Origin: a virus
Length of the DNA stretch: 64,000 bases
Direction: 5' to 3' (one strand)
Virus record (IMG/VR): IMGVR_UViG_3300046543_000266
Span: 1 to 64,000 of that record
Shown here: piece after piece, positions 1-61,945 of the stretch
Numbering within the stretch: the first letter of the stretch is position 1
Layout of the letters: each line of letters begins with the position of its first letter
Program-made: the position numbers and the translations under genes
Notes under the pieces: generated by a model
Database searches by the model: none
What the model saw: only the letters and a program-made list of their open reading frames with translations
Told to the model about the DNA's origin: nothing

Positions 1-17
1 ACAAGGAGTATCACACA

Positions 18-566
18 ATGCCCCGTAAATCCACCGCAATTCCCGCTGCGAAACCGGCTGCAATTCCCGCCAAGCCTGTGACCAAAGTCGCGCGCAAGCT
101 GACGCCGGAGCATTCGGCAGGTTCGCTTACGCGCGATGACATTCTCGCAGTCGTCGGACAGGCGATCGCAACGCATCCGGCACTGCAACGCGCAGACGTG
201 CAAGTCGTCGCAGACGCAAACGGCCCGATCGTTGGCAACTCGCAGAAGTCGCTTCAGCTTCAGGCTGGCCCGGCGACTTCGGGTGTTCCCGCAACGCCGA
301 TCAATCACGCGCTCGACGAACTGCATCTGCAACTGCAACTGCTGAACGCCGACCTCGGCTCGATGCAAGAAGTGCTGCGTCCGCACCTGCAGAACGCAGT
401 CTTCGACGACACGCCCGCCGAGAGCGGCTCGGTCCAACGCGCTGAAACGTATCGCACCTACGGCAGCGACATGTCGCCGACACTCGTCGCCCTCAACTGT
501 TCGCTGAACTTCGTCGAAGGACTGCGCGAGCGTATCTCGTTCCTGACCCGCAACGTCGTGAACTAA
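18..566 (+). CDS. Hypothetical protein with Ala/Pro/Lys-rich N-terminus
   Basis: 182 residues, not recognised. The first ~35 residues are rich in Ala, Pro and Lys, like the basic tails on several other proteins in this window; the rest looks helical, with a Leu-rich stretch (ELHLQLQLLNADLG) near residue 100. AAGGAG stands about 9 bases before the ATG. A strong terminator follows, so this gene closes a transcription unit that starts outside the window. Confidence 0.85.
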   Translation: MPRKSTAIPAAKPAAIPAKPVTKVARKLTPEHSAGSLTRDDILAVVGQAIATHPALQRADVQVVADANGPIVGNSQKSLQLQAGPATSGVPATPINHALDELHLQLQLLNADLGSMQEVLRPHLQNAVFDDTPAESGSVQRAETYRTYGSDMSPTLVALNCSLNFVEGLRERISFLTRNVVN

Positions 567-10449: not shown

Positions 10450-11192
10450 ACAAGGCGATACCAGCGGCTACGAAACCCGCATCTAACTCTCCCACCGTAA
10501 TCCGCTTGACGAAGATCAAGCAGTGGTGGCTCCCAGTCGACGCCGAGTCCTACTTGGCTTTGCGCGAGGCCGGTGTGCCACTCGTCCGCTTTCATGTGGA
10601 CTTCCTCCCAGCGCTATCCCTCATTACGAAGAAGCATCGCATCCGTGCGAAGGAAGTATCCTTCAAGGATGAAATCCTGACGCCGTTCCTCAATCTGGTC
10701 GGCACCACCTGGAACAAGAAGCAACACTGCCGGGCAACCATCGCCGCGCGGTCCATGAAGTTCGAGACCCTGAAGCCCGAGGTCTACACGAAAGCGAAAG
10801 AGAGCATCACGAAGCTCACCGACATCCTCGAGAAGTTCTTTGTTCGGTGGGGCTTCAAATACCAGTTCGAGTACAGCGAGTCGCGCGGTAAGTGTAAATT
10901 GAATGTGGAGTACTACTTCGACAGCACCAAGATGCCGGTCATTCCTCTGGAGACCCCGGTCACTGATCTGCCGAAGGTCCAACTGAAGATCGGCTTTACG
11001 CGCATCACGATGACGTTCGGCGACCGCTATGTGGATACGCTGATCGAAGTCAGTCAGGGTGGCAAGTTCACCCCGTTGCACTCAACGCGTTGCACGTACT
11101 CGCAGATATCCTCAGTCAAACCTATGATCGCGGCACTCATGCAGGTGCCCGATCATGACATTCACAACTTCGACAACTCGGCCACCCCATGA
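10446..11192 (+). CDS. Hypothetical protein
   Basis: 248 residues, alpha/beta, not recognised. A coiled helix (AKESITKLTDILEKFFVRWGF) lies near residue 120. It sits directly ahead of, and overlaps by ATGA, the topoisomerase II large-subunit gene, so it may act with it, but no motif shows this. Confidence 0.8.
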   Translation: MNKAIPAATKPASNSPTVIRLTKIKQWWLPVDAESYLALREAGVPLVRFHVDFLPALSLITKKHRIRAKEVSFKDEILTPFLNLVGTTWNKKQHCRATIAARSMKFETLKPEVYTKAKESITKLTDILEKFFVRWGFKYQFEYSESRGKCKLNVEYYFDSTKMPVIPLETPVTDLPKVQLKIGFTRITMTFGDRYVDTLIEVSQGGKFTPLHSTRCTYSQISSVKPMIAALMQVPDHDIHNFDNSATP

Positions 11193-13870
11193 TTATGGCT
11201 CTCGCCAAAAAGAAAGTCGCCGCTCCGACAAAGAAGGCGGCTTCGTATTCGAGCAAGGACATCACAACCTTGCGCTTCCCGGACAACGTCCGCTCGAACC
11301 CTTCGATGTATCTTGGGTCGGTGGACGCCGCTGGTGTGTGGCTCACGGCCCGGGAATTGCTGGACAACGCGCTGGATGAGCATCTGGCGCACCGTAACGA
11401 CGCAGTCATGCTGCACGTCGATAAGGACGGCTCCTATTGGGTGCTGGATCGTGGTCACGGCGTGCCGCAGGGTGTGAAGAAGTTCAGCGTGCACGTCAAC
11501 GGCAAGGACATCGAGACGAAGATGCCCACGATGCAAGCCGTCTTCGGTGAACTGCATACGTCGGGCAAGTATCGCTCGGATGCATACGCAACCTCGGTTG
11601 GTACGCACGGCATCGGCGCCAAGGGCACCAACGCAACCTCGGAGTTCTTCGAGGTCTTCACGTTCTACGAAGGCCAGTGGTTCACCATCGGCTTCAAGAA
11701 GGGCAAGCTGGTCAAGCACGTCGCGAAGTGCAGCGCCCCGAAGGGTCCCGACGGCAAGACTGTTACCAAGGGCACGGTCATCCACTTCAAGCCGGATCCC
11801 ACGATCTTCACCGTCAAGTCCTTCCCACCCTCGATGGTGATGGAATGGGCCGACGTGATGTCGCATCTGAATCCCGGCTTCGCAATCGTCGTATCCAGCC
11901 CCAAGGGCAAGAAGCAGTTCCTGTCGAAAATCGGCCCGGCCGGTTACGTCCAGCAGCGCATCGAGAAGTTGAAGACCGAAGCTGAACGCCTGATGTTCGA
12001 GTACAAGTCGGATCTGGCGGACGTCGTGGTGGCCTTCTCGAACTATGACGGCTGCGACGTGCGCGGTTTCACGAACGGCCTGAACAATGCTCAGGGCGGC
12101 AAACATCTGGACGCTGTGACCGGCGCACTGTACGCGGGCCTCAAGCCCTACATCAAAACCAAGCGCGTGGAAGGGAAGCCGGTTCCGGTGTTCCGCGAGG
12201 CTGACTTCAAGGAAGGCTTGGTTGGTCTTGTCAACGCCAAGCTCCACAAGGCCGAGTTCAGTTCGCAGGACAAGGCACGGCTGACTGATGCTCGTATGGG
12301 TGCGGCGTTCGAGAAAGAGCTCACGCTGGCAACCATCAAGTTCTTCAAGGACAACAAGGCACTGGCACTGCGTCTGTGTGCGCGGGCCACAAAGCTCAAC
12401 GAACTGAAGACCAAGTTCACGTTGTCGAAGAAGGCTGCGTCCACGCTCAACGCTATGAAGCGCAACGGTCTGCCCGCCAAGTACGCTGGATTCGACAGCA
12501 AGACGAAGACCGAAGACCGCGAACTGTTCATCGTCGAAGGGGATTCGGCAGGTGGTACGGTCAAGAAGGGTCGCTTCCCGTATCAGGCAGTGCTGCCCCT
12601 CAAGGGCAAGATCATGAACGCGTTGAAGGATGGCAAGGGCAAGACGCTGGAGTCGGAGGAAATCCTGAACATCCTGGCGGCTATCGGCTTCGACGTCAAG
12701 GCAGTCGACCCGTATGCCAAGCTCACGGTCGGCAAGATTGTGTGTCTGGCTGACCCGGATCCGGACGGCCCCTTCATCGGCGACACCCGCATCAACTTCC
12801 GCTACAATACGCACGGCACGACGCAGTCGGCCAGCATCGAGTGCCTCGCCAAGATGGCAGCTGATGGTACGGAGTTCGTGGTTCCGGTGTGGAACGGCCA
12901 AACCGAAGTGTGGGCCAGCGCCAGCGCTCGCCTCGAACGCAACGTCGAGCAACTGGTTGCTCTCGAGATCGGCAAGACGAAGTACAAGGTCAGCGTCGAT
13001 CACAAGTGGCTGTGTGTTAAAACCGATGCGCTGCGCGGCCGCGACGTGGGCGAACATGCAGACAACCTCGTGTTCGTCAGGGCGGCTGATCTGAAGGTAG
13101 GCGACCGGGTGTTCATGCCCGCAGCTAACAACACGCGGGACAAGTCTAGCTGCGACTACGCGACGAAGCTCGGGTTCGCCCCAGTCTCGAAGATGCGCAT
13201 CCAGCAGTTGGACCAGCCGGTTCCGGTGTACTGTCTGAGCGTGCCGAAGTATCACCACTTCATGCTGCCTTCGGGTATCGTGTCGAGCAACTGCCACATC
13301 AACTCGTTGCTGCTCACGCTGTTCTACCGCTATCTGCCTGAGCTGTTCAGCCGGGGCATGGTGTTCGTTGCCAACAGCCCGGAGTTCTACAGCATCCACA
13401 AGAATCAGCTGGTGACCGGCGAGTCGCTGTCGGCAATGGGCAAGAACCTGAAGCGCATCAAGGCACCGGCCAACACGCCGATCCATCACATCAAGGGTTG
13501 GGGAGAAATCGATGCTCCGCTGATGCGCATCTTGGCAATGGACCCGGCCACGCGGAAGCTCATCAAGATTGGCGCAATCGAGCACGACGACAAGGTTGAC
13601 TTCGAGCGGCTCATGAACGACGACGTTGCCTATCGCCGTGACATGTTGGGCTTGCCGTCCAATGCCGTCGGCGGTGACGTGGAGGAGGAAGGCACTCCGA
13701 AGTCCAAGGCCGCACGTAAAGTACCTGTGAACAAAGCGGTCGTCGCAGCCAAGAAAATTGCGACAGCCAACCGGAAGATCGTTCACCGTCGCGATGAAAT
13801 CGAAGCCAAGCGCATCGAGAAGCGACGTGGCCTCCGTCCGGTGGGCAAGACGTTGCGCAAAGCCGCATAA
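11189..13870 (+). CDS. Type II DNA topoisomerase large (ATPase/TOPRIM) subunit with intein
   Basis: 893 residues including a 174-residue intein. GyrB/ParE/T4-gp39 family: GHKL ATPase with ELLDNALDE (56-64), DRGHG (87-91) and GTHGIGAKG (138-146); TOPRIM with EGDSAGG (450-456) and DPDPDG (522-527), metal-binding residues for DNA cleavage; IKGWGEI replaces the usual YKGLGEM. The intein splits DPDPDG from CHINSLLL. Basic Lys/Ala tails are added at both ends. Works with the subunit at 13880 to relax DNA ahead of replication forks. Splicing is needed for an intact TOPRIM domain. Confidence 0.93.
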   Translation: MIMALAKKKVAAPTKKAASYSSKDITTLRFPDNVRSNPSMYLGSVDAAGVWLTARELLDNALDEHLAHRNDAVMLHVDKDGSYWVLDRGHGVPQGVKKFSVHVNGKDIETKMPTMQAVFGELHTSGKYRSDAYATSVGTHGIGAKGTNATSEFFEVFTFYEGQWFTIGFKKGKLVKHVAKCSAPKGPDGKTVTKGTVIHFKPDPTIFTVKSFPPSMVMEWADVMSHLNPGFAIVVSSPKGKKQFLSKIGPAGYVQQRIEKLKTEAERLMFEYKSDLADVVVAFSNYDGCDVRGFTNGLNNAQGGKHLDAVTGALYAGLKPYIKTKRVEGKPVPVFREADFKEGLVGLVNAKLHKAEFSSQDKARLTDARMGAAFEKELTLATIKFFKDNKALALRLCARATKLNELKTKFTLSKKAASTLNAMKRNGLPAKYAGFDSKTKTEDRELFIVEGDSAGGTVKKGRFPYQAVLPLKGKIMNALKDGKGKTLESEEILNILAAIGFDVKAVDPYAKLTVGKIVCLADPDPDGPFIGDTRINFRYNTHGTTQSASIECLAKMAADGTEFVVPVWNGQTEVWASASARLERNVEQLVALEIGKTKYKVSVDHKWLCVKTDALRGRDVGEHADNLVFVRAADLKVGDRVFMPAANNTRDKSSCDYATKLGFAPVSKMRIQQLDQPVPVYCLSVPKYHHFMLPSGIVSSNCHINSLLLTLFYRYLPELFSRGMVFVANSPEFYSIHKNQLVTGESLSAMGKNLKRIKAPANTPIHHIKGWGEIDAPLMRILAMDPATRKLIKIGAIEHDDKVDFERLMNDDVAYRRDMLGLPSNAVGGDVEEEGTPKSKAARKVPVNKAVVAAKKIATANRKIVHRRDEIEAKRIEKRRGLRPVGKTLRKAA
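12770..13291 (+). other. Mini-intein in topoisomerase large subunit
   Basis: In-frame, residues 528-701 (174 aa, no homing endonuclease domain). Block A is PFIGDTRINF (usual CxxGDTxI), block B KVSVDHKWLCV (TxxH-type), block F VYCLSVPKYHHFM and block G GIVSSN followed by Cys702. It starts with Pro instead of Cys/Ser and has Ser instead of the usual penultimate His; the Asn701/Cys+1 pair is intact. Removing it joins DPDPDG to CHINSLLL, the expected TOPRIM sequence. Confidence 0.88.
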
Positions 13871-23873: not shown

Positions 23874-23914
23874 GGGACACACCGACCCTTCCCAAACAAT
23901 CATCGGTGTGTCCC
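23874..23914 (+). promoter_or_regulatory. 12-bp hairpin ahead of the adhesin gene
   Basis: GGGACACACCGA pairs perfectly with TCGGTGTGTCCC over a 17-base loop, ending 20 bases before ATG 23935 with only TT after it. May end upstream transcription or act as a leader structure for the adhesin. Confidence 0.65.
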
Positions 23915-23934
23915 TTAAAACAAAGGTAATAAAA

Positions 23935-25692
23935 ATGAAAAAGACGACCATCGCAATCGCAATCCTGTCCTCGTTCGCAGCTCCGGCATTCGCAACGCAG
24001 TACGTGGCCTACGACACGGTTCCGGGCAGTCACGGCCAGTCGGAAGTGGACTACGGCAACGTCACGATGCAGGGTACGAACGGCACGAAGATCCACAACG
24101 TCGCGGCGGGTACGTCAGGCACGGATGCAGTCAATGTCAACCAGCTGAACAGCGCAATCGCTACGGTCAAGACCCAGAAGGGCGATACCGGCGCGACGGG
24201 TGCCACAGGTGCTCAAGGGGTCGCGGGTAAGGACGGCAAGAACGGCATCGATGGTAAGAACGGCATCGATGGTAAGAACGGCATCGATGGAGCAGCGGGT
24301 GCGACCGGCGCTCAAGGCGTCGCAGGTAAGGATGGTGCGAAGGGCGACACTGGCGCACAGGGTATCCAGGGTGTGAAAGGCGATAAGGGTGAGAAGGGCA
24401 ACACTGGCGCTTCTGTTGCTGGCGTGTCTATCAACGGCACGACTGTGACGACAACGCTCGACAACGGTTCGCAGGTGAACGGCACTATCACGGGTCTGGC
24501 TACGACGGAGCAGTTGAACCAGACGAACGTCAACGCCAGCGCTCTGGGTTCGAAGGTGGACCAAGCTACCACGACGGCGAATCAAGCCAAGTCCATCGCA
24601 CAAGGGGCAGACGCCAAGTCGAACACGGCAATCGGCATCGCCGCCGGAGCAGCTATCACCGCGACCGGTGCAGCCATCGTCAGCGGCATCGCCTACGAGA
24701 AGGCTGACAATGCTCAGCAAGTCGCTGGTCAGGCCAACGCCACGTCCAACCAAGCGAAGAACATCGCTCAAGGTGCGGCGTACCAAGCCAGTCACGCAGA
24801 CCAAGTCGCGGCTGAAGCCAACACGACGGCAGGTAAGGCAACCGTCACAGCACAGGCAGCAGATGCGAAGTCGGACATCGCACTGGCAACCGGCGTGAAG
24901 AACAGCGGTGACATCAACAAGCTGAACGCGGGCTTGGCGACTACCAACTCGCATGTCGCGCAGAACACGGCAGACATAGCGGCCAATCAGCAAGCCATCC
25001 GCTCGGAAGCTGGCCGTGCTCAAGACGCTGAGTGGAAGCTGGGATCAGCGATCACGTCGGAAACGTCGCGCGCAACGGCTGCCGAGCAGGGCATCCAGTC
25101 GCAAGTGACGGGCAACACGAAGAGCATCAACAATCTCAACGCACGCCAAGCCAACACCGAAGCGTGGATCGGAAATGCGAACGCGGGAGCCATCGGTCAA
25201 GGCTCGCAAGTGAAGGCGAACAACGCAGTTGCACTCGGTGCTGGCTCCGTGGCAGATCGTGACAATACCGTGTCCGTAGGCGCTGCTGGTCAGGAGCGTC
25301 AGGTCACCAACGTCGCAGCCGGTACGCAAGCAACCGACGCGGTGAACGTGTCGCAGCTGAACAGCTACATGCGTCAGACAGCAAAGGCGGTGGACAACTC
25401 GAATGCCTACACGGATCAGCGAGTCAACGCTCTGCAGTCGTCGTTCGATAGCTTCAAGAAGGATACCTACGGCGGCATCGCAACGGCGCTGGCAATTGCA
25501 GGACTGCCGCAGCCGACGGCTCCGGGTCGTTCGATGGTGTCGGTGGCGGGTTCCACGTATCACGGGGCAACCGGTCTGGCCGCTGGCTACTCGCAGGTAA
25601 CGCAAGACGAGCGTTGGGTGATGAAGGCGTCGGTTACCACGAGCAACCGTGGCGACTTCGGTGCTGTGCTCGGCGCTGGTCGTCAATTCTGA
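23935..25692 (+). CDS. YadA-type trimeric autotransporter adhesin
   Basis: 585 residues. Signal peptide 1-20 (MKKTTIAIAIL...APAFA), neck motif GTDAVNVNQLNS (~62-74), collagen-like Gly-X-Y stretch (~82-160), a long helical stalk, a YadA head-like repeat (NAVALGAGSVADRDNTVSVG), a second neck TDAVNVSQLN (~465-475), then an outer-membrane anchor of four strands (residues ~510-585) ending in Phe. All parts for Sec export and outer-membrane display are present, so it should decorate the infected cell rather than the virion. Such a gene in a phage is a bacterial-type acquisition. Confidence 0.88.
   Translation: MKKTTIAIAILSSFAAPAFATQYVAYDTVPGSHGQSEVDYGNVTMQGTNGTKIHNVAAGTSGTDAVNVNQLNSAIATVKTQKGDTGATGATGAQGVAGKDGKNGIDGKNGIDGKNGIDGAAGATGAQGVAGKDGAKGDTGAQGIQGVKGDKGEKGNTGASVAGVSINGTTVTTTLDNGSQVNGTITGLATTEQLNQTNVNASALGSKVDQATTTANQAKSIAQGADAKSNTAIGIAAGAAITATGAAIVSGIAYEKADNAQQVAGQANATSNQAKNIAQGAAYQASHADQVAAEANTTAGKATVTAQAADAKSDIALATGVKNSGDINKLNAGLATTNSHVAQNTADIAANQQAIRSEAGRAQDAEWKLGSAITSETSRATAAEQGIQSQVTGNTKSINNLNARQANTEAWIGNANAGAIGQGSQVKANNAVALGAGSVADRDNTVSVGAAGQERQVTNVAAGTQATDAVNVSQLNSYMRQTAKAVDNSNAYTDQRVNALQSSFDSFKKDTYGGIATALAIAGLPQPTAPGRSMVSVAGSTYHGATGLAAGYSQVTQDERWVMKASVTTSNRGDFGAVLGAGRQF
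24238..24290 (+). repeat. Tandem 18-bp repeat encoding KNGIDG
   Basis: Three near-identical copies of GATGGTAAGAACGGCATC in the collagen-like stalk; likely to vary in number by slippage. Confidence 0.85.
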
Positions 25693-25712: not shown

Positions 25713-25742
25713 AAGAGGGGTTCCTTGTTTGGGACCCCTCTT
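25713..25742 (+). terminator. Terminator hairpin
   Basis: AAGAGGGGTTCC pairs with GGGACCCCTCTT across TTGTTT. Only a short T run follows. It ends the adhesin transcript, but also lies downstream of the motif at 25696. Confidence 0.7.
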
Positions 25743-60241: not shown

Positions 60242-61945
60242 GTGGACCAAACTAAAATCACCGCTTCACAGCTAGTCAATCTTCTCGAGATACTATACGT
60301 TCTCGTCATCGATTACGTTGAGAACGGACCCGAGCGCAAGCCGGACGCAGAAACCGCTGAAGAGCTCAAGCATCTGGGCAAACCTGCTGTCGCTCAGTGG
60401 GGCAAGGATCTGCCGGCTCTGCGAGACAGCATCAACGCGGCATTGGCTGGTCGCAGCAAAGCCGAGCAACTCGCGCTTCTCGGTGAAGAAGTGAAGGGTG
60501 CCTTCCAGAACTTCCGCGCCAACGAACGGTTCACCAGTCAGGAAATCGAACTGCTCAAGGCACTCGGCGCCTATCTGCGCACTGACTCCGAGATCGCGCT
60601 GCAGAAGATCAAGAAGTTCGCGGGCGTGATGAACAATCCGTACATCAGCAAGCGCATGGCTCCGGAAGTCGGCACACAGAAGAAGTCGTCGAATGCGTTG
60701 CGCCAACTCATCAAGAAGATGGTTGGTCGCGACGATACAGCTCTTACCTTGGACGAAGCGAAGATCGCCAAGGAGATGCATCCGGATCTGTATAAGCAAT
60801 ACATGGCGTATCGCAAACAGCACCGGGAAGTGTGGCAGAACGCGATGATCTCGTACATCCGTAACAGCGGACACAGCACGGTTCCGTACGAAGAGCTCCT
60901 GCAATATCTGCTGGCGAACGGCATCGACCACATGCTCCCGCTGGGATTCACTGGTCAGGTGGACGATCAAGGCAAGCTGTACACCAACGACGGTCATCTG
61001 ATCGACGGCGTGCCGCAAGCAACCAACTTCCCGAGCGTGGAAATGAACGCGCATTACGGTCAGCCGGGTGCCGAGCATTACGTGTTCCAAGCCATCCGCT
61101 CGAATGGCGGCCCCGGTCCGTACTTCTACACGTCTGACTTCAAGAAGGCCGCTAGTCGCGCCAAGTTTGAGAAGGTCGCCGATCTGGCACCGAAGCTCAA
61201 CTCAATGCAGAAGAAGTGGTTCGCCAACGTCAAGAAGTTCGATCCCGAGAACGTGCGCTGCGTCTGCGCTACCGTGCTGGAAATCCTGTACGAGTTCAGC
61301 GCCCGCGTCGGTTCCAAGGGTAACGCTGCGGCTGGACAATCCACGTTCGGTGTGTCCACGCTTCTGGTCCGTCACGTCAGCGTCGATCAAGGAGGCAATG
61401 TGATCCTGCGCTATCGCGGTAAGGACGCAGTGCCTACGATGCACAAGCTGATGAAGAACGATCCGCAGCAACGATTCGTGATCGCCAATCTGATGCAGCT
61501 GATGAACGGCAAGCAACCGAAGGATCGGCTGTTCACGGTGTCCAGTCCAACAGGACGACTCAAACCAGTTGGCGGTGCCGCGGTCAACGCGTACTTCCGT
61601 AGTCTGGGTGCGCCCGAAGGTGTGACCGTCCACAAGCTGCGTACCTTCCGTGGCACTGCGCTGTTCCGTGAGCTGATGGACAAGCTCTTCGAGAGTGGTA
61701 AGCTTCCGAAGGACGAACGCGCTGCAACCCTCATGTTCAACAAGATGGCGATGGCCGTCGGCAAAGCGCTCAATCACGTGCGCCGTGGTGCGAACGGGAC
61801 GTCAGTCACCGGGACAACTGCGCTTGCCAACTACATCGACCCCTCCATCCAAATCACCTTCTGGCGTCAGTTGGGCTTCCGACCGCCGAAGTCCCTCGAA
61901 CGCTTCGATGTCGGTGGTGGCGCTGGTTCCACTGACGAAGAATAA
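60242..61945 (+). CDS. Type IB DNA topoisomerase
   Basis: 567 residues from GTG (AGGATA upstream). The C-terminal third carries a complete IB active site: Arg355 (ARVGSKGNAAAGQSTFG), Lys394 (YRGKDAV), Arg467 (HKLRTFRGTA), His512 (KALNHVRRG) and the nucleophile Tyr531 (ANYIDPSI). The N-terminal ~220 residues are helical and extra relative to small poxvirus-like enzymes. It relaxes DNA without ATP via a 3-prime phosphotyrosine. First of a run with Nudix and SprT genes. Confidence 0.88.
   Translation: MDQTKITASQLVNLLEILYVLVIDYVENGPERKPDAETAEELKHLGKPAVAQWGKDLPALRDSINAALAGRSKAEQLALLGEEVKGAFQNFRANERFTSQEIELLKALGAYLRTDSEIALQKIKKFAGVMNNPYISKRMAPEVGTQKKSSNALRQLIKKMVGRDDTALTLDEAKIAKEMHPDLYKQYMAYRKQHREVWQNAMISYIRNSGHSTVPYEELLQYLLANGIDHMLPLGFTGQVDDQGKLYTNDGHLIDGVPQATNFPSVEMNAHYGQPGAEHYVFQAIRSNGGPGPYFYTSDFKKAASRAKFEKVADLAPKLNSMQKKWFANVKKFDPENVRCVCATVLEILYEFSARVGSKGNAAAGQSTFGVSTLLVRHVSVDQGGNVILRYRGKDAVPTMHKLMKNDPQQRFVIANLMQLMNGKQPKDRLFTVSSPTGRLKPVGGAAVNAYFRSLGAPEGVTVHKLRTFRGTALFRELMDKLFESGKLPKDERAATLMFNKMAMAVGKALNHVRRGANGTSVTGTTALANYIDPSIQITFWRQLGFRPPKSLERFDVGGGAGSTDEE

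Follow-up and report, generated by a model that had tools for sequence, protein, structure and literature searches.

A complete trimeric autotransporter adhesin gene in a jumbo phage genome, with predicted display on the infected cell

The adhesin gene and the genome that carries it

The DNA analyzed here (the window) spans positions 1 to 64,000 of the virus record IMGVR_UViG_3300046543_000266, and an intact open reading frame on its plus strand (23935..25692) encodes a trimeric autotransporter adhesin (TAA) of 585 amino acids. All features described for this locus lie on the plus strand. A ribosome binding site read from the sequence, AAAGG (23922..23926), stands 8 nt before the ATG; an alternative GTG start at 23908 is possible, giving 594 amino acids, and would spoil the signal peptide. 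The N-terminus, MKKTTIAIAILSSFAAPAFA followed by TQ, shows by a simple rule the n/h/c pattern of a Sec signal peptide, which is assigned to residues 1-20 (23935..23994) with a predicted cut between AFA and TQ. It is followed by an N-terminal segment (23995..24180) whose neck motif HNVAAGTSGTDAVNVNQLN matches the necks of bacterial TAAs, and by a collagen-like stretch of 26 uninterrupted Gly-X-Y triplets (residues 83-160; 24181..24414) recognized by Pfam and by triplet count. Next come a post-collagen segment, ASVAGVSINGTTVTTTL...TGLATT (24406..24534), and an alanine-rich coiled-coil stalk including GAAITATGAAIV (24535..25173). Head repeats and a second neck occupy residues 414-494 (25174..25416; Pfam YadA_stalk at 456-494, together with PDB profile matches), and the YadA membrane anchor (PF03895; residues 525-585; 25507..25692) closes the protein with a C-terminal Phe directly before the stop.

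The Pfam matches of the protein, each exceeding the curated cut-off, were YadA_anchor (E=5e-14, covering profile positions 1-60 of 60), YadA_stalk (E=1e-18, in two stretches) and Collagen (E=7e-14). A profile of the C-terminal 170 amino acids retrieved solved TAA structures, including those of Hia (3emo, 2gr7, 2gr8), BpaC (7o23) and YadA (2lme), and the PDB profile matches include head and neck modules. The protein ends in ...GAGRQF, the QF ending being common to all relatives of the same group, and its final Phe supplies the terminal aromatic residue of the outer-membrane beta-signal. AlphaFold returned a low-confidence monomer for the C-terminal domain (pLDDT 44) in which the anchor is modeled as a helix followed by four strands, as expected of a YadA anchor, a match that does not amount to independent proof. 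The features expected of type Vc secretion, namely a complete C-terminal anchor, a Sec signal peptide and a stalk with head and neck, are all present, and the initial annotation of a complete TAA with signal peptide, collagen-like stalk, necks, head repeats, anchor and terminal Phe is borne out by Pfam, PDB profiles and the sequence itself.

Folding places a hairpin on either side of the gene, although a promoter and terminator scan around it reported none. Just 5' of the gene lies a perfect 12-bp hairpin (GGGACACACCGA / TCGGTGTGTCCC; 23874..23914) of -22.3 kcal/mol (z = -6.8, with no shuffled sequence folding as well), which is a candidate terminator of the preceding unit or a candidate leader structure. 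The hairpin on the 3' side (25713..25742; -23 kcal/mol, z = -5.9) has a terminator-like stem without a T run.

The full record measures 217,605 bp and has an exact 127-bp direct terminal repeat (window 1-127 = record 217479-217605), which indicates a closed genome. In a listing, the closed record is nevertheless named among those whose end repeats class them as possibly linear. The GyrA it encodes shares 61% identity with that of Burkholderia phages BcepSauron and BcepSaruman, and about 9 to 23 kb of the window is collinear with BcepSaruman genes, the TAA gene following a homolog of BcepSaruman_158; on its 3' side there is no further match to the BcepSaruman region compared. Homologs of sheath, tail tube, baseplate, fiber, terminase, DNA polymerase and lysis genes are found at 74-193 kb of the record, and a distance of more than 60 kb separates the TAA gene from the tail sheath, with over 80 kb between it and the tail-fiber genes. 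A profile search of the whole genome gave one YadA anchor, the one within the TAA. The genomes of BcepSauron and BcepSaruman contain no YadA anchor anywhere, so the TAA gene is accessory relative to both.

Phage identity was judged from homologs of BcepSaruman genes, the terminase family PF03237 being uninformative as it was detected in none of these jumbo phages; no phage was matched when 22 kb of the window served as a megablast query. Taken together, the terminal repeat, the flanking genes shared with BcepSaruman and a full-length homolog in the isolated phage FLC9 establish this as a phage gene and exclude the case, raised initially as a ground for rejection, of host DNA joined in error. 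Domains of tyrosine integrases and serine resolvases were found in none of the window phage, FLC9, BcepSaruman and five IMG/VR relatives, whereas the controls were positive; by this domain search the gene is not carried by an integrating phage in the manner of the Eib-type TAAs of lysogenic conversion. Two other genes of the window deserve mention. A eukaryotic-type topoisomerase IB (PF01028, E=2e-23) is encoded at 60242-61945, in a phage that has a phage GyrA/GyrB pair as well, and a GyrB-like protein at 11189-13870 shows a weak intein-splicing match at residues 624-700, below the cut-off.

Relatives, ancestry and selection

The suggested search of other jumbo phages for homologs was productive. 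FLC9, an isolated and completely sequenced jumbo phage of 321,833 bp with B. glumae as its host, encodes a full-length TAA homolog of 721 amino acids (gp240, BDD79759.1, annotated as a hypothetical protein) that is 68% identical to the window TAA over the C-terminal 172 amino acids. Full-length relatives were also found on five IMG/VR contigs of 172-315 kb (L036, L037, L118, L119 and L120) and on a 245,075-bp contig filed under a Sulfuriferula MAG (L038; JARLJL010000015.1). The last of these has a 141-bp terminal repeat and homologs of phage endolysin and sheath proteins (L145-L157), and is apparently a complete jumbo phage misbinned as bacterial. Signal peptide and anchor are kept in all seven relatives, and each searched phage record carrying a TAA gene has exactly one YadA anchor.

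An initial scan of viral contigs yielded chiefly matches to collagen. When the window protein was used as a BLAST query against phages, the hits other than FLC9 were restricted to contigs of bacterial appearance and two weak matches to coiled coils of Salmonella phages. The contigs CAKLQH020000029.1, AFYI01000003.1 and AGRM01000004.1 look like bacterial contigs in a phage collection, and their TAA matches therefore cannot be counted as phage.

The gene holds one conserved place in FLC9 and its four close IMG/VR relatives (5/5 examined), and a neighboring gene used as a query retrieved those four IMG/VR contigs and no others, each of them with the TAA. L036 is only loosely collinear with FLC9, and a megablast of 20 kb of L036 against FLC9 matched solely in the 3' half of the TAA (82%). 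Upstream of the gene, an element TATATAAC recurs in several of the FLC9-like relatives, and in most of them a strong terminator stands 3' of the TAA gene; these elements, with the hairpins flanking the window gene, suggest that the TAA gene may be under separate control. A fiber-like gene of phrog_17105 (L001:25227-26165; L036:14628-15545; L038:1972-2892), 68-74% identical, was also observed close to the TAA gene of three jumbo phages that are divergent in other respects, at about 1-4 kb in L036 and L038 and about 10 kb in FLC9.

The window phage and the FLC9 group are different lineages, since the FLC9-like phages lack the phage GyrA and the TAA is the sole gene shared between the window and the FLC9 region compared. 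Transfer of the TAA gene between jumbo phages is the simplest account. Among bacterial proteins, the closest are TAAs from the Burkholderia cepacia complex, whose C-terminal domain shows 60-63% identity, and in the tree the phage TAAs form one group beside Burkholderia with support of 95/66. Grouping of the window TAA with Burkholderia was not rejected (AU p = 0.52), and the tree points to no single bacterial source of the window gene.

The post-collagen segment is 63-77% identical in L036-L038 and 46% in FLC9, against at most weak matches in bacterial relatives (best E = 1e-3), and the stalk motifs QAKSIAQGA and GAAITATGAAIV occur in the phage proteins examined, with at most a trace in the bacterial relatives that were compared. 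Because these parts are shared among phages in this way, one phage lineage of the TAA gene is favored. The collagen part resembles phage tail-fiber families, while Gly-X-Y runs in the bacterial relatives do not exceed 4 triplets; among the TAAs compared the collagen content ranges from 0 to 55 triplets, and stalk length likewise varies widely. The window protein thus looks like a mosaic, with a phage-fiber tip on a bacterial anchor. Purifying selection on the phage TAAs, anchor included, is evident from substitution counts. For the anchor, dN/dS is 0.07-0.19 when the FLC9-type relatives and L038 are paired with one another, and pairing of the window protein with FLC9 and with L038 gives 0.18 and 0.33, respectively; all of these values are rough, as dS is close to saturation in most pairs.

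Other lytic-phage TAAs came into view when an enterobacterial anchor was used as the query, which was needed to see them. They belong to phiEco32 and other kuraviruses, to Salmonella phage Munch and other jumbo phages of about 340-370 kb, to the Erwinia phages Kaldavass, Hena1 and RF1, and to Pantoea phage LIET2. Full YadA anchors (E from 1e-13 to 1e-19) are present, several of the proteins have collagen, and signal peptides are found as well, in phiEco32 and LIET2 after correction of the start. The annotated starts of phiEco32 gp119 (L125:1982-2779) and LIET2 gp127 (L129:1505-2782) are probably too early, and the internal Met 40 and Met 27, respectively, give proper signal peptides. Thirteen IMG/VR loci have the same layout from signal peptide to anchor. 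As the anchors of phiEco32, Munch, Kaldavass, Hena1, LIET2 and RF1 form a separate, mostly Trp-ended group, phages have probably acquired TAAs at least twice. The texts of the papers on SU10, YF01 and Privateer make no mention of an adhesin.

Predicted display on the infected cell

We consider, with a probability of roughly 0.78, that this is a maintained gene of a jumbo phage of BcepSauron/BcepSaruman type and that its product is exported, anchored as a trimer and displayed on the infected cell as an adhesive fiber. During infection the product would be exported by the Sec system of the host, and three chains would come together in its outer membrane by way of the YadA-type anchor and the BAM machinery of the host, carrying the collagen and coiled-coil fiber outside, so that the infected cell would be coated with a virus-encoded adhesive fiber. 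The gene may ultimately derive from a bacterial TAA closely related to the Burkholderia ones, may have gained its phage-fiber-like collagen part and may then have been exchanged among jumbo phages. Location in the outer membrane of the infected cell, as proposed from the outset, is what the anatomy of signal peptide and complete anchor predicts, and because no integrase or resolvase domain occurs in the window phage or its relatives, display would most likely take place in lytic infection.

The principal competing account would make the protein a virion fiber, that is, a protein of the tail or a decoration protein, made up of TAA modules, in which the hydrophobic start and the anchor fold are retained by chance. 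The resemblance of the collagen part to tail fibers, the fiber-like genes situated 1-10 kb from the TAA gene in L038 and the FLC9-like phages, and the detection of a cyanophage YadA-domain protein in virions (PMC9146016) all speak for it. We nevertheless regard it as improbable. For a role in virions only, neither an outer-membrane barrel nor a signal peptide would have to be preserved, and both are retained here under purifying selection; moreover, the gene is remote from the tail genes in the window phage and seems to form a transcription unit of its own in most FLC9-like relatives, and the yadA homologs of virulent Salmonella phages are not near tail genes either (PMC3728262). Given the fiber-like genes beside it in relatives, a link of the TAA to a host-recognition module is possible.

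That the gene is a passenger, recently captured from bacteria and without function in the phage, would agree with the 60-63% identity of its bacterial relatives, its absence from BcepSauron and BcepSaruman and the window-Burkholderia grouping that the tree tolerates. It is set against the shared phage-only stalk segments, the support for the phage clade, dN/dS well below 1 and the retention of the gene by all FLC9-like phages examined, which largely refute it for the FLC9 group and make it very unlikely overall. That host DNA was joined to phage DNA during assembly, or that the gene was misread, has next to no probability: the genome is closed, the upstream phage genes are syntenic with BcepSaruman, a homolog sits in the completely sequenced FLC9, and nothing was found in its favor.

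As for what display would bring the phage, adhesion or aggregation of infected cells comes first in our ranking, followed by superinfection exclusion. Infected cells may stick to neighboring cells or to surfaces, keeping targets near the burst site, a tentative proposal that we would put somewhat below even odds. Superinfection exclusion shares the display step and differs only in the gain, the fiber coat or anchor blocking the phage receptors of the infected cell. Such exclusion would be an advantage to a phage with a long cycle, and the predicted surface location and the occurrence of TAAs in unrelated lytic phages are in line with it. It is judged rather unlikely: no receptor link emerged, and the widely varying stalk length and collagen content would suit an adhesin as well as a shield.

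Extended to the second group of phages, the balance is about even that several unrelated lytic lineages, several of them jumbo, acquired complete adhesins at least twice and keep them for productive infection, the rebuilt surface serving adherence to uninfected neighbors or the exclusion of rivals.

What is known of surface changes made by phages comes mostly from prophages. The presence of a conserved adhesin for surface display in phages in which no integrase was found suggests that contact between a cell and its neighbors may be altered before the burst in lytic infection as well; if true, it would be a viral counterpart of the prophage changes within the lytic cycle, relevant to how phages spread in soil and biofilms, to superinfection and to phage products. 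Among such phages, FLC9 has undergone testing for the control of rice seedling rot (PMC12388082), and this candidate agent carries a predicted adhesin gene that had gone unrecognized. As FLC9 and the E. coli phage phiEco32 are isolated phages, the question is within direct reach of testing.

Comparison with known systems

A TAA in a phage is not unique to this genome. Prophage TAAs (Eib) are present in databases, yadA homologs away from tail genes were reported in virulent Salmonella phages, with phiEco32 and others listed (Moreno Switt et al. 2013, PMC3728262), an ORF of a T4-like Serratia phage resembles the YadA anchor (PMC5449768), and several lytic phages have the same layout. The window gene adds a variant to what is already known; in the open-licence literature, no paper was found to describe complete TAAs as recurring among jumbo or lytic phages.

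The closest counterpart is FLC9 gp240, which likewise belongs to a jumbo phage and combines a signal peptide, a coiled stalk with the phage-only motifs, head, neck and anchor; it differs in its 721-amino-acid length, in having only a short Gly-X-Y run, in its phage lineage and in being unrecognized as an adhesin in its record. The chromosomal TAAs of the Burkholderia cepacia complex share the C-terminal head, neck and anchor at 60-63% identity but are bacterium-encoded and mostly of 900-1,800 amino acids, with no long collagen run and with another stalk and N-terminus. The 'agglutinating adhesins' of lytic phages (phiEco32 gp119, Munch_428, Kaldavass, Hena1 gp235, LIET2 gp127 and RF1) also have a signal peptide, a stalk and a full anchor, often with collagen, yet their anchors constitute a separate group with a mostly Trp end and were probably acquired independently. 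The cyanophage structural protein S-SZBM1_54 is similarly a phage protein for which a YadA-type domain is named, but it is a virion protein by mass spectrometry (PMC9146016). EibC and EibD of E. coli prophages resemble the window protein as phage-carried TAAs with head repeats and an anchor; they contain no collagen, are annotated as immunoglobulin-binding and, being prophage-carried, are shown by lysogens, whereas the window protein would most likely be displayed by cells in lytic infection.
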